A stretch of 29,794 bases of DNA. It comes from a virus. Of this stretch, positions 5,450 through 12,926 are shown in pieces. The notes below the pieces were generated by a model that ran no database searches, was not told the DNA's origin, and was given only the letters and a program-made list of their open reading frames with translations. The stretch is from the IMG/VR virus record IMGVR_UViG_3300049445_000157, positions 1 to 29,794 of that record. The stretch is one strand, 5' to 3'. The stretch's first letter is position 1; each line of letters starts with the position of its first letter. A program made the translations under genes and the position numbers.

Positions 5450-5695
5450 CTACGCTACAGATCGGACGGGGCGGGTTCCTACACGATAGCGGCTATCGCG
5501 CGGCAGACCGGCGCGAAGCTCCTCGATGGTAATGTCGCCCAGCCCCCGCGCGGCGGCGAGATCGAGCAGCAACGGCCAGAACGACGGCGGGATACCGTTG
5601 GAGCGCCAGCGCGAGATCGCGCTATCGCTCCGTCCGGTTAGGAGGGACAGCGCGGTGTTGCCGCCGAAAGCATCGATGATGCGGTCGTGTCTCAT
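5450..5695 (-). CDS. YdaS/Cro-like transcriptional regulator (81 aa)
   Basis: IIDAFGGNTALSLLTGRSDSAISRW followed by RSNGIPPSFWPLLLDLA is the YdaS/Cro-like helix-turn-helix, occupying residues 6-55. Such proteins sit divergent to the repressor gene in lambdoid phages. The ATG at 5695 has no Shine-Dalgarno: the sequence before it on this strand reads GCTATACCCCC, so a TATA-like -10 box ends only a few bases upstream. Transcription may therefore start at or near the ATG, giving a leaderless message. The gene leads the whole replication operon. The XRE gene on the other strand may be the opposing partner. Confidence 0.78.
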   Translation of the reverse strand: MRHDRIIDAFGGNTALSLLTGRSDSAISRWRSNGIPPSFWPLLLDLAAARGLGDITIEELRAGLPRDSRYRVGTRPVRSVA

Positions 5696-5875
5696 GGGGG
5701 TATAGCGCAGGCTACGCCAAAGCTTGCACGGCGTGCAAGTCTAGCGGTCTTGCGGCGATCGGCGTCTAATGCGACCATGCACAGGCAAGGGGCGTTCCCT
5801 TGCGACCAAGATAAGACGCCCGCCCGCCTAGTCTGGGGCGCGCTTTTGTTTGCCGGTTGGTTTGAAGGTTGTGCA
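5696..5875. promoter_or_regulatory. Divergent lysogeny control region
   Basis: This 180-bp gap separates two divergent HTH regulator genes, the standard place for a phage genetic switch. It holds the 17-bp operator at 5723-5739 and a perfect 7-bp inverted repeat at 5785-5803 (GCAAGGG / CCCTTGC, 5-nt loop). A TATA-like box just before the minus-strand ATG is also present. No other coding capacity is convincing. Confidence 0.65.
5723..5739. promoter_or_regulatory. Operator O1, perfect 17-bp dyad
   Basis: CTTGCACGGCGTGCAAG is a perfect palindrome about its central base, the size and form of lambda-type repressor operators. It lies 16 bp before the minus-strand leader region and 137 bp before the XRE gene. 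Three near-copies occur elsewhere in the window. Confidence 0.68.
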
Positions 5876-6337
5876 ATGCCGCAGCGACAGCCCACTGACT
5901 CGTCGTTGGTAATGGAGGGGTTCGGCGAGCGGCTGCGCCACTTGCGTCAGGCGTACGAGGAGCGCGACGGTCCGCGCGGTCATACGCGCGCGCAATGGGC
6001 GAAGCGGCTCCAGGTCTCGCCGGCAATGTATGGTCGGTGGGAAGCCGGTAGAAACCTACCGCGCTTCGAGGATTTGCTTAGGATTTCCCAGCTTTTCCGC
6101 GTCGATCCGAATTATTTGGTCGCAGGGCTTTTGTCGGCACACTTACGGCCTTGGCTCGTGCGCGCTTTGCGGGAGGCGAATCCTCGTATCTTACTTGAGG
6201 CGGATTGGTGGAAAAATCGATCCGAAGCCTTTGTGCAAGCAGATCAAGAACTAGCGGACGCGGCACGGTCGAACACATTACCGGAACCTCCCACTTCATT
6301 TCCACCAAAACGCAAGACGCCAAAGCGTCCGAAGTAA
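5876..6337 (+). CDS. XRE-family repressor-like regulator (153 aa)
   Basis: Residues 15-83 form an XRE helix-turn-helix: FGERLRHLRQAYEERDGPRG, then AQWAKRLQVSPAMYGRWEAG, then RNLPRFEDLLRISQLFRVDP. The loop between the first two helices is longer than usual. The remainder is helical, with a Pro/Lys-rich end (PPKRKTPKRPK). There is no LexA-type S24 peptidase domain, so SOS self-cleavage is unlikely; induction must use another route. The start is ATG 5876 with GAAGG 7 nt upstream; ATG 5912 is possible. It is the best candidate to bind the 17-bp dyads, but the YdaS-like protein could do so too. Confidence 0.8.
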   Translation: MPQRQPTDSSLVMEGFGERLRHLRQAYEERDGPRGHTRAQWAKRLQVSPAMYGRWEAGRNLPRFEDLLRISQLFRVDPNYLVAGLLSAHLRPWLVRALREANPRILLEADWWKNRSEAFVQADQELADAARSNTLPEPPTSFPPKRKTPKRPK

Positions 6338-6390: not shown

Positions 6391-6441
6391 CTTGCACGCT
6401 ATGTCGCGCGGCATGTAGCGAGTGCTTGCACGTCATGCAAG
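6391..6441. promoter_or_regulatory. Operators O2 (half-site and full dyad) before the recT operon
   Basis: CTTGCACGTCATGCAAG at 6425-6441 differs from the O1 palindrome at two positions. A half-site CTTGCACG starts at 6391, 34 bp (about three turns) upstream. Bases after both full copies also match (CTTGCA...GCAAGTCT). The full dyad is 46 bp before the first early gene and probably overlaps its promoter. No exact -35/-10 pair can be claimed. Confidence 0.62.
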
Positions 6442-8260: not shown

Positions 8261-8463
8261 CCACGCGGCACAAGCCTGACCACGAGATTCAATTGATGTT
8301 GCGCGTGTTGCGCGATCTCCAAGCGTTGCCCAAAGCGGGACGGCATCGCGTGCTGGCCTATTGGAACGCGCGCGCCGACGACATGCCGGAGACCAGCAGC
8401 AAGCAGGGCGAACAGCAACTCGATATCGAGGACACGCTATTGCCGGCGAAGGCGGCAGCATGA
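8257..8463 (+). CDS. Small hypothetical protein (68 aa)
   Basis: It reads MTTRHKPDHEIQLMLRVLRD, then LQALPKAGRHRVLAYWNARAD and a polar tail. The core is two helices, of the kind encoded beside recT. The start at 8257 overlaps the recT stop and the stop overlaps the next gene, both as ATGA. Family not recognised. Confidence 0.7.
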   Translation: MTTRHKPDHEIQLMLRVLRDLQALPKAGRHRVLAYWNARADDMPETSSKQGEQQLDIEDTLLPAKAAA

Positions 8464-8804
8464 TTAGCGCGCGCGAATTCAACCGGATCGAAAAGGCGCG
8501 CGAGATCGAGCTTCGTCCGCCGCCGCCGGCCACGTCGCCGCCCGCGTCGCGCAAGACGCGGACGCTCGCCGAGATCGGCGCGGACGCCGGTAGCGCGGTC
8601 GCGACCGTTCCCCGGTTGCTCGACGCGGATCGGATCGCCGAGCTTTTGCAGGTCACGCGCCGGCACGTAAACCATCTGGTGCACATCGGCGAATTCCCCA
8701 AGCCGGTCCTGGTCGGAACGCAACGGCGCTGGCTCGCGAGCGATTACAACGCGTACGTTGCCAAGCTGCGCGAGAAACAAGCGAAGCGGCGCCGCCATGC
8801 CTGA
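8460..8804 (+). CDS. AlpA/excisionase-like winged-helix DNA-binding protein (114 aa)
   Basis: The C-terminal half is a MerR/AlpA-type wHTH: LLDADRIAELLQVTRRHVNH, LVHIGEFPKPVLVGTQRRWL and ASDYNAYVAKLREKQAKRRR. The FPKPV..G...RW...D motif is the hallmark of AlpA and excisionase proteins. Residues 1-55 are disordered (Pro/Ala/Arg). With an integrase 2.8 kb downstream it is the best excisionase candidate, although AlpA proteins can also be transcription activators. It starts at ATG 8460 in an ATGA overlap. Confidence 0.78.
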   Translation: MISAREFNRIEKAREIELRPPPPATSPPASRKTRTLAEIGADAGSAVATVPRLLDADRIAELLQVTRRHVNHLVHIGEFPKPVLVGTQRRWLASDYNAYVAKLREKQAKRRRHA

Positions 8805-10284: not shown

Positions 10285-10508
10285 AAGAGCAAGAGGCTAT
10301 CGCGAAGGCTATGGCGGCACTCGAAGCGGCCGAAAAGCAATTCACGACCTACGCGGAGCATCACAAGCTACAAGCAAACGCCGCTTATGCCACCAAGATC
10401 GAGCGAGAAAGGCGCCTAGCGCAAGCCTCCACCAACTACGGATATGCGGTCCTGTGTGGAGACGCGCTGGAACACCTAAAGCTTGCGGTGGAAGTGCGCG
10501 AGCGATGA
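10281..10508 (+). CDS. Small coiled-coil hypothetical protein (75 aa)
   Basis: MKEQEAIAKAMAALEAAEKQ followed by a charged helical run (YATKIERERRLAQASTNYGY) suggests a coiled coil. Start and stop are both ATGA overlaps with neighbours. Family not recognised. Confidence 0.68.
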   Translation: MKEQEAIAKAMAALEAAEKQFTTYAEHHKLQANAAYATKIERERRLAQASTNYGYAVLCGDALEHLKLAVEVRER

Positions 10509-10750
10509 TCGCGACCGAGCCAGACGATATCGACGACATGCTAAACGCGATGCTTCGGGAGACCGACTGCGATCGCTCCGGCGACCTATCCGACAAGCTT
10601 GTTAAAGCGTCGATGACCTACTCGCGCGGCGAGATCGTCGTTGCGCTGGCGATTACGCTCGCGGCGCTGGTCGATCAATGTCCGTCGCCGCCGCTTATGC
10701 TCGACCTTGCGGTGCGGCTGGCCGAGCGTTTTTTGGAAGTCGGCGAGTAG
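10505..10750 (+). CDS. Small acidic helical protein (81 aa), last gene before the CRISPR array
   Basis: It reads MIATEPDDIDDMLNAMLRET through GEIVVALAITLAALVDQCPS to AVRLAERFLEVGE. The middle is hydrophobic but reads as a packed helix rather than a sure membrane segment. The start is an ATGA overlap at 10505. The TAG at 10748-10750 lies inside the degenerate first CRISPR repeat, so the array abuts the end of the early operon directly. Confidence 0.66.
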   Translation: MIATEPDDIDDMLNAMLRETDCDRSGDLSDKLVKASMTYSRGEIVVALAITLAALVDQCPSPPLMLDLAVRLAERFLEVGE

Positions 10751-10956
10751 ATGCCCCGCATGGCGGGGAACGCCCGGTCCCTGGTCTCGCCAAATCGAGC
10801 GGCGGCGGTTCATCCCCGCATGCGCGGGGAACGCCGAGGCAACCGGCCCTTGCGCGGCTTGTGCAGCGGTTCATCCCCGCATGCGCGGGGAACGCAGCGC
10901 CAGCAACATCCGGGCCGGCGTCTGCACCGGTTCATCCCCGCATGCGCGGGGAACGC
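10745..10956 (-). CRISPR. Mini CRISPR array, type I-E-like, three intact repeats, one degenerate repeat, three 32-bp spacers
   Basis: Three identical 29-bp repeats lie at 10806-10834, 10867-10895 and 10928-10956. Each begins CGGTTCAT, contains CCCCGCATGCGCGGGG (6-bp stem, 4-nt loop) and ends AACGC. A fourth, degenerate copy at 10745-10773 keeps CCCCGC-ATG-GCGGGG-AACGC but has lost the CGGTT end. Spacers at 10774-10805, 10835-10866 and 10896-10927 are all exactly 32 bp and unrelated to one another. Repeat and spacer lengths are those of type I-E. In the usual I-E orientation (repeat ending GATGAACCG) the array reads on the minus strand, so the degenerate copy is at the trailer end and the leader would lie to the right. 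No cas gene is present, so function would need host Cas proteins. Confidence 0.93.
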
Positions 10957-10992
10957 CCGGCGAGAAACGCCCTTCGTATCTACTAGCGGCCG

Positions 10993-11009
10993 GTTGCAAT
11001 CCATGCAAG
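10993..11009. promoter_or_regulatory. Operator O3 beside the CRISPR leader
   Basis: GTTGCAATCCATGCAAG; its reverse complement CTTGCATGGATTGCAAC matches O4 at 15 of 17 positions. It starts 37 bp from the last repeat, where a leader promoter reading into the array would sit. Flanking GGCC(GG) bases extend the symmetry. Confidence 0.5.
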
Positions 11010-11032
11010 CCGGCCAGCCCACCTATGCGCGG

Positions 11033-11257
11033 TCGCATGAAAACTCGCATGGTTGAATCATGCGGTCGGCGTAACCGCTTGAAAACGCGCGATTATCCTA
11101 CGGAACCGGCATTGTTGACCACAACGCGGCCTGCACCACCTAGCGCTACCTAGCCGGGAGATTAGCTAGACAATCCAGGCGTTTACGCGGTATGGCCTTG
11201 CATGGAATGCAAGCGACGACCAGGATAGGATATTCTGGATCGCATGTTTTTCGCATG
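11033..11257. repeat. Two pairs of TCGCATG direct repeats
   Basis: TCGCATG occurs at 11033-11039 and 11045-11051 (12-bp step), then again at 11240-11246 and 11251-11257 (11-bp step). One-turn spacing in two separate pairs suggests cooperative protein binding. The second pair lies just before the Shine-Dalgarno of the gene at 11272. Confidence 0.5.
11197..11213. promoter_or_regulatory. Operator O4 before the lone gene
   Basis: CTTGCATGGAATGCAAG has 7-bp perfect arms around three central bases and the same frame as O1. It lies 58 bp before the ATG at 11272, with a TAGGATATT box 13 bp further on that could be a -10 element. Repressor bound here would cover the -35 side. Confidence 0.58.
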
Positions 11258-11271
11258 AAAGGGAACCGACT

Positions 11272-11514
11272 ATGACAACCTCAACCGCCTTCAAGCCGGC
11301 CGCGATCTCGGCGGACATGATAACCGAGACCGGGCCGCATACGTTCGTCGTCGATGCGTCCGATCTCCGCTGGCCGGCCGGTATCGAGTGGCCGGCGACG
11401 ATCGAGACGACGATGGGCAACGGCTTGCGCTTCCAACTTTGGTCCGCGAGCCGCGACCATGCGACCTATCGCCAAGCGAACGGCATCATCGTCGTAAGCG
11501 TATTCAACGACTGA
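11272..11514 (+). CDS. Lone hypothetical protein (80 aa) with own control region and terminator
   Basis: The protein reads MTTSTAFKPAAISADMITET, then GPHTFVVDASDLRWPAGIEW, then TTMGNGLRFQLWSASRDHAT and ends GIIVVSVFND. It is slightly acidic and beta-rich, without Cys motifs or membrane segments, and I do not recognise it. AAGGGA lies 9 nt before the ATG. It is a single-gene transcription unit: an operator-like dyad upstream and an intrinsic terminator 11 bp after the stop. Beside a CRISPR array, this could be a lysogeny-expressed moron, an array accessory or an anti-CRISPR; nothing in the sequence chooses between these. Confidence 0.72.
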   Translation: MTTSTAFKPAAISADMITETGPHTFVVDASDLRWPAGIEWPATIETTMGNGLRFQLWSASRDHATYRQANGIIVVSVFND

Positions 11515-11588: not shown

Positions 11589-12926
11589 ATGACCACTACC
11601 ACCCACAACCGTCCGCAGCAAGCCGGCAAGCTTGCGAGCGGCGCGGATATCAAGACGGCGAAGCCGGGCGCCAAGCTGCGGTTCGGCAACGGCCTATATC
11701 TGCTGGTCTCGCCGACCGGAACCAAGTCCTGGCAGGTTCACTACCATGTCGCCGGCCGGCACCAAGCGACGATCGTCGGTCGCTGGCCCGATCTCGGGAT
11801 CGTCGAGGCCAAGGCGGCGCGCGAAGCGATCCGGCAGACCGTCCGAGCCGGCGACGATCCGGCGCACGAGCGGACGGAGAAACGGACCGCGCGGATCGAG
11901 GCGAACGCGGCAACCGTCCGCGTCGTCGCCGAGCGATGGATCGAGATCGCGCAAGAGGCGCGCGGCTGGTCGGCGAACTATACCGCCCAGACCGCGCAAC
12001 GGCTCGCGAACCATGTCCTGCCGGTTATCGGCGAGCGGCCGATCGGCCGGGTGACGACGCATGAGATCGAGGCGCTGATCGGCGGCTTGCTAAAGCGGTT
12101 GCGCTCGCAAGCCGTCCACGTCCGCCAGCATATGCAACTGCTGTTCGACTATGCGCTGCGGCATGATCTCGTGACCGTCAATCCGGTTCGTAAGATTGCC
12201 GCCGACCTACCGAAGCGCGTTGCCGGCGATCCGCGCGAAGTTAGCCAAGCGCATGTCGAGACGATCGCGGAAGCGCGGACCGTTCTTGCGGCAATGGAAG
12301 CGACGCCTTGCTCGCCGTTCGCCGCGCTCGCGCATCGGCTGATTGCGTTGACCGCCGTCCGCAAGCTCGAAGGCGTCGAGGCGCAATGGTCGGAAGTCTC
12401 GGAAGGCGCGGACGGTATGACCTGGACGATTCCGGCCGCGCGGATGAAAGGCCGGCGCGGTCAAAAGCGCGAGCATGTCATCCCGCTATCGCCGCAAGCC
12501 GCCGACGTGTTCCGCGCCGCGCGGACGCTCGCGGTCTCGCTCGGCGTCAATTCGCCGAGCGTGTTCCCTGGTCGCGGCAATCGCGGCAACCTCGAGCGAT
12601 CCGGCTTGAACGACGTGATGCGTCGCGCGCTCGCGTCGGTCGATCTCGCCGGCCGGCATACCGTCCACGGCTGGCGGGCGACGTTTTCGACGATCTGCAA
12701 CGAAGCCGATCCGGGCGCGTATCGCGTGATCGACGTGATGCTCGCGCATAAGGCGTTCGGCGCGGTCGAGAGCCGATACAACAAAGCGACTTTTCTCGCC
12801 GAGCGGCGTCGCATGGCAACCGCGTGGGCGGATCAATTGCTCGACGGCGCGCCGAGCGCTTTCGAGATCGCCGGTCTCGACGAGCCGACAACGAGCAACG
12901 TCGTGCAATTGAGGGAGGCGGCGTGA
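11589..12926 (+). CDS. int: Tyrosine recombinase / phage integrase, P4-like
   Basis: The product has 445 residues. The N-terminal DUF4102-like domain has KLRFGNGLYLLVSPTGTKSW and VGRWPDLGIVEAKAAREAIR. A SAM-like core-binding domain covers roughly residues 110-210. The catalytic domain shows TAVRKLEGVEAQW (R258), KREHVIPLS (H296), VHGWRATF (H360-x-x-R363), MLAHKAFGAVESRYNK (H387 and nucleophile Y397). It catalyses site-specific integration and excision, typically at tRNA genes. ATG 11589 is preferred because GGGAAG lies before it; ATG 11568 is in the T tract after the terminator and has no ribosome site. Its TGATG overlap couples it to three more small genes and an HTH gene. Confidence 0.93.
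   Translation: MTTTTHNRPQQAGKLASGADIKTAKPGAKLRFGNGLYLLVSPTGTKSWQVHYHVAGRHQATIVGRWPDLGIVEAKAAREAIRQTVRAGDDPAHERTEKRTARIEANAATVRVVAERWIEIAQEARGWSANYTAQTAQRLANHVLPVIGERPIGRVTTHEIEALIGGLLKRLRSQAVHVRQHMQLLFDYALRHDLVTVNPVRKIAADLPKRVAGDPREVSQAHVETIAEARTVLAAMEATPCSPFAALAHRLIALTAVRKLEGVEAQWSEVSEGADGMTWTIPAARMKGRRGQKREHVIPLSPQAADVFRAARTLAVSLGVNSPSVFPGRGNRGNLERSGLNDVMRRALASVDLAGRHTVHGWRATFSTICNEADPGAYRVIDVMLAHKAFGAVESRYNKATFLAERRRMATAWADQLLDGAPSAFEIAGLDEPTTSNVVQLREAA

Follow-up and report, generated by a model that had tools for sequence, protein, structure and literature searches.

The window, which is the whole stretch of DNA analysed here – a 29.8-kb viral record that is incomplete – comes, going by its gene content, from a temperate phage. 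The genes that concern us are the following:

5450-5695, minus strand: Cro-like small regulator, heading a leftward operon (phrog_409, phrog_8008)
5876-6337, plus strand: XRE/CI-like repressor candidate (PF13560 1.7e-11, PF01381 7.8e-10)
8454-8804, plus strand: excisionase-like HTH protein, a candidate directionality factor (phrog_66 2.2e-08)
10507-10750, plus strand: last early gene, whose stop codon falls inside the degenerate terminal repeat of a CRISPR array
11272-11514, plus strand: 80-aa ORF in the slot preceding int, without a match in family searches
11589-12926, plus strand: tyrosine integrase with an arm-binding domain (PF13356, PF22022, PF00589)

Scans of genome contigs based on the integrase and on the repressor yielded no prophage relative. 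The CRISPR array is placed after the last early gene, which has its stop at 10750, and ahead of the integrase cassette. It has three identical repeats of 29 bp and a fourth, degenerate one at a spacing of 61, which enclose three 32-bp spacers. The minus strand gives the repeat as GCGTTCCCCGCGCATGCGGGGATGAACCG. The parts of the array and its flank, all given on the minus strand, are:

10745-10773: degenerate terminal (trailer-end) repeat GCGTTCCCCGCCATGCGGGGCATCTACTC, in register, with the next repeat 61 bp away
10774-10805: spacer 3, the oldest (top phage-library match E=3)
10806-10834: type I-E-like repeat, identical copy
10835-10866: spacer 2 (top phage-library match E=0.9)
10867-10895: type I-E-like repeat, identical copy
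10896-10927: spacer 1, leader-proximal (top phage-library match E=3)
10928-10956: type I-E-like repeat, leader-proximal, identical copy
10957-10993: 37-bp leader-proximal segment, not conserved among relatives in the alignment

The minus-strand reading is the usual orientation for type I-E repeats and, together with the degenerate copy at the far end, it places the leader side at 10957 onwards. The initial annotation had placed the leader there from the repeat polarity and the degenerate left repeat, and both lines of evidence agree with it. A host-type leader is doubtful: the conserved attP module is just 37 bp away from the array, and 10957-11120 gave no clear IHF-type site (the best, near 11080, has 1 mismatch). 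An Rfam scan of 10600-11300 returned no match. On the other side, across 10507-10956, an early operon transcribed on the plus strand has its last stop codon inside the array's terminal repeat, so that read-through RNA would be antisense to the array.

What the array might do can be framed by known cases: it may be a targeting mini-array (as in PMC6858448), a decoy (PMC10651486) or a relic. It is a short, regular repeat–spacer array without cas genes – none was found in the ten ORFs scanned against PADLOC, from an incomplete 29.8-kb record – as in virus-borne mini-CRISPRs. The spacers gave nothing significant in phage records (best E=0.9) and no protospacer within 7 mismatches in the fetched relatives. 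The exact repeat was absent from every other viral contig searched, the nearest repeats, with 1 mismatch, occurring in 2 of 385 genomes of the class sampled. The lack of cas matches among the ten ORFs and of spacer targets in the searches, the shortness of the array, its decayed terminal repeat and, weakly, a faint trace of a repeat at the corresponding place in one relative (L010) would all fit an RNA-type anti-CRISPR (a Racr-like decoy) or an inactive relic better than an array used for targeting. We regard this alternative as possible though not probable, as three perfect repeats and standard 32-bp spacers give the look of an ordinary array. The Racrs in PMC10651486, moreover, are mostly solitary repeat units, a single repeat-like unit behind a promoter, as opposed to three intact repeats in register with a weak promoter.

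Immediately beyond the leader-proximal segment lies a dyad, here called op3, described in the initial annotation as a 17-bp member of a phage operator family situated 37 bp from the array. The distance is exact, with op3 beginning precisely 37 bp past the last repeat; the size needs correcting to 15 bp with 5-bp arms, the outermost pair (10993 G / 11009 G) being mismatched, unlike in the three related sites of the window (op1, op2 and op4), which read CTTGCA..TGCAAG. The family assignment itself is borne out, as the same exact motif sits at the switch operators: the window holds exactly four copies of TTGCAN5TGCAA (at 5724, 6426, 10994 and 11198), where dinucleotide shuffles give an expected 0.01. 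Four sites at regulatory places, set against that expectation, mark op3 as truly belonging to the operator set of the phage. These sites and the surrounding attP elements, none assigned to a strand, are:

5724-5738: op1 TTGCACGGCGTGCAA, between the divergent regulators (leftward TTGCAC-N18-TAGCCT)
6426-6440: op2 TTGCACGTCATGCAA, preceding the gam-like/RecT operon (TTGCAC-N17-TAGCGT)
10994-11008: op3 TTGCAATCCATGCAA, a perfect TTGCA-N5-TGCAA at the left edge of the attP module
11034-11051: left arm-type repeats CGCATGaaaactCGCATG, at +40 and +52 from op3
11065-11108: approximate attP core region, homologous to a ~38-bp identical stretch in contig G002; boundaries inferred
11198-11212: op4 TTGCATGGAATGCAA, preceding the gene cassette ahead of int
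11241-11257: right arm-type repeats CGCATGtttttCGCATG, from the alignment of att regions

The slot between op4 and int (11272-11514 in the window) holds different small genes in each relative, and is thus a variable cargo position.

Relatives of the phage family were gathered by searches with the repressor and the integrase. In eight distinct ones, both att operators are of the TTGCA type: L010, the two phages of G002, L034, L036, L041, G010 (apparently circular, because its contig ends overlap) and L066 (whose op4 is one base off). A perfect op3 occupies the same attP-relative place in the window and in all eight of these relatives with a sequenced att region. No array was found in the stretches read from the eight; in the alignment, conservation begins at op3, and the sequence leftward of it cannot be aligned. 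As op3 is present independently of the array, it most simply predates it; as the relatives share the site without the array, the site belongs to the integration region, and any control of the array would be secondary. A search of viral contigs for the repeat end combined with the operator gave 7 matches, to be discarded as 5 coincidences in coding sequence and 2 that represent one array-less relative.

In L010, repeat-like fragments GCGGGGAAC and GGTTCAAAATCCCCGCGCGCGCG are seen on the reverse complement at ~11330-11375, where the window has its array – perhaps a decayed repeat unit, with weak statistics. Across the relatives, the search for such relics upstream of op3 was unconvincing (best p ~0.01-0.04 among ~24 tests).

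The geometry of the module is regular. The left CGCATG repeats stand at +40/+52 from op3 in 11 of 12 phages, the fixed position looked for in an attP element, and the right CGCATG pair follows op4 at about 43 and 54 bp, so that an operator with an arm-repeat pair occurs twice, flanking the core. The op3–op4 distance is either 203-205 or 215-217 bp, two classes set about one helical turn apart. The probable core is drawn from one contig, G002 (L018/L020; IMGVR_UViG_3300046536_000173, 83 kb), on which its position rests: two different family members lie there head to tail, ~41 kb apart, and share an identical stretch of ~38 bp between the left arm repeats and op4. The arrangement on this contig resembles tandem prophages or a cointegrate. 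As read in these sequences, the set of sites, their fixed geometry and the absence of the array from relatives are matters of observation.

Whether op3 is read by the immunity repressor can be approached through phages in which the specificity of the operators has changed. In three of them (L042/L063, L043/L062 and L064), op1, op2 and op4 have become TTGCCN5GGCAA; the recognition helix of the XRE protein, which has conserved residues throughout the TTGCA class, and the helix of the Cro-like protein both differ in this TTGCC class. There op4 tracks the repressor but op3 has not switched, reading TTCCAATCCATGCAA in L063, TTGCAACTCATGCAA in L062 and CGCCGAACTATGCAA in L064; one of the three keeps the full TTGCA dyad, one has a damaged left half and one has lost that half, and only ATGCAA is constant. 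Another protein, for example integrase or excisionase, may therefore read op3. The centre of op3, more conserved than those of op1 and op2, likewise counts against the repressor reading. L062, L063 and L064 form a natural specificity-switch series in which op1 is present in two copies, and L062 and L064 also carry TTGCCTTTTCCGCAA 32 bp before op4.

These observations lend some weight to the idea that op3 is an integrase, excisionase or other attP-arm site that merely overlaps the operator motif and is no repressor site at all. The fixed spacing between op3 and the arm repeats fits such a site, as does the behaviour of the TTGCC class, where the ATGCAA right half persists, the left half decays and the specificity never switches. 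We nonetheless hold this to be a minority prospect, because the ten-base identity with the op1/op2/op4 motif in 9 of 9 TTGCA-class phages (the window included) is hard to explain without a shared protein. On this comparison, it is more likely that an att-related constraint acts on the right half of op3 and that the full operator is maintained mainly in the TTGCA class.

Promoter architecture separates op3 from op1 and op2 as well. At op1 (leftward) and op2 (rightward), half of the operator serves as a -35-like element: all 14 cases have TANNNT at N17/18, where the background is 0.8%. No TANNNT was found at N17/18 of op3 in either direction in any of the 6 phages examined, the window included, so that op3 lacks the promoter overlap seen at op1 and op2. 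A role for op3 as the operator of a rightward transcript through attP was rejected, since no relative has a -10 there.

This bears directly on the possibility that op3 is the operator of an array promoter, so that crRNA would be made in the lytic cycle and shut off in the lysogen. It could do so by occluding a -35 element or by standing as a roadblock in the path of transcription from the attP core. The array-ward (minus) strand shows TTGCAT-N17-TAGTAG at op3 in the window only. The background for TA at N17/18 is 4.6%, and TAGTAG lacks the final T found in all 14 op1/op2 promoters. A second candidate lies further upstream:

11092-11121, minus strand: sigma-70-like match TGGTCA-N18-GATAAT, a consensus match only, overlapping the core

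No other sigma-70-like match precedes the array on the array's strand, and a transcript from this one (11121-11092) would cross op3; the match also overlaps the att core, however, so that integration would alter it. With op3 itself probably older than the array, we find an array-promoter operator doubtful. Judged from sequence, op3 has no good promoter directly under it, and control of the array by roadblock or occlusion is possible. The initial annotation had proposed that, if repressor binds the site, array transcription is tied to the lysogeny switch; that the site exists to control the array found no support, given that array-less relatives keep op3, that no -10 accompanies it and that it does not co-vary with repressor specificity.

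The explanation that we prefer, with slightly better than even confidence, is that op3 is one of four immunity-repressor operators, built into the left arm of attP, and that a cas-less mini-array landed beside it later. The XRE protein (5876-6337), perhaps together with the Cro-like protein (5450-5695), would read op1 to op4. Bound at op3 in the left attP arm and at op4 by the promoter of the int cassette, the repressor would act on integration and excision as well as on int expression. In the prophage state, op3 and op4 would part to opposite ends, leaving the array just inside one of them. We infer repressor binding, the attP role and any effect on the array from the arrangement of the sites. 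The mini-array would have been inserted afterwards, past the last early gene and short of attP, and op3 would be its neighbour by position only. If the array is transcribed on the minus strand, polymerase has to initiate within the attP arm and op3 or pass through them, and a bound repressor could block it incidentally.

A stronger version, in which the array is under the lysogeny repressor through the attP-embedded operator – its crRNAs kept silent during lysogeny and released once the phage is induced or infects, its control region rearranged by integration – strikes us as unlikely. The link between array and repressor is a possibility raised by the position of the array and not one selected by the evidence; an operator adjoining an array is not by itself evidence of control. 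Should op3 silence the array, the phage would offer a clear example of CRISPR wiring to the lysis–lysogeny switch. Even without array control, a conserved, phased pair of repressor-type operators flanking attP suggests a coupling, in this phage family, between the immunity repressor and the integration machinery.

Several known systems share parts of this arrangement. In lambda-type CI/Cro switches, divergent regulators share dyads that overlap the early promoters, with operators in triplets; the window phage has the divergent regulators and the shared dyads over early promoters, but its operators there are single, and two more flank attP. Prophages of Clostridioides difficile carry CRISPR arrays, of a subtype that differs from that of the window array. 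In the parts of PMC6079278 consulted, these arrays are not reported to be under phage-repressor control.

Virus-borne mini-CRISPR arrays are known from archaeal viruses and phages (PMC6858448; reviewed in PMC11656645), and the window array shares with them its shortness, the lack of cas genes and presumably the use of host Cas proteins; it differs in adjoining the attP of a temperate phage and in that searches gave no spacer targets. With RNA anti-CRISPRs and solitary repeat units (PMC10651486), it has in common the presence of repeat units in a cas-less phage, but its three intact repeats, normal spacers and lack of a clear promoter set it apart. Type I-E-like palindromic repeats, intergenic and possibly mini-arrays or solitary repeat units, were also seen in Streptomyces phage Piccadilly (L077, ~1380-1700), in a search that matched 16 Streptomyces phage records.

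The dual use of regulator sites has a precedent in phage 186, whose Apl binds both the switch region and att (PMC7498355). As there, one type of site is found in the window at the early-promoter region and at the attachment site; in contrast to the direct-repeat sites of Apl, those of the window are spaced dyads suited to an XRE/CI-like dimer, and the window phage has a separate excisionase-like gene (8454-8804).
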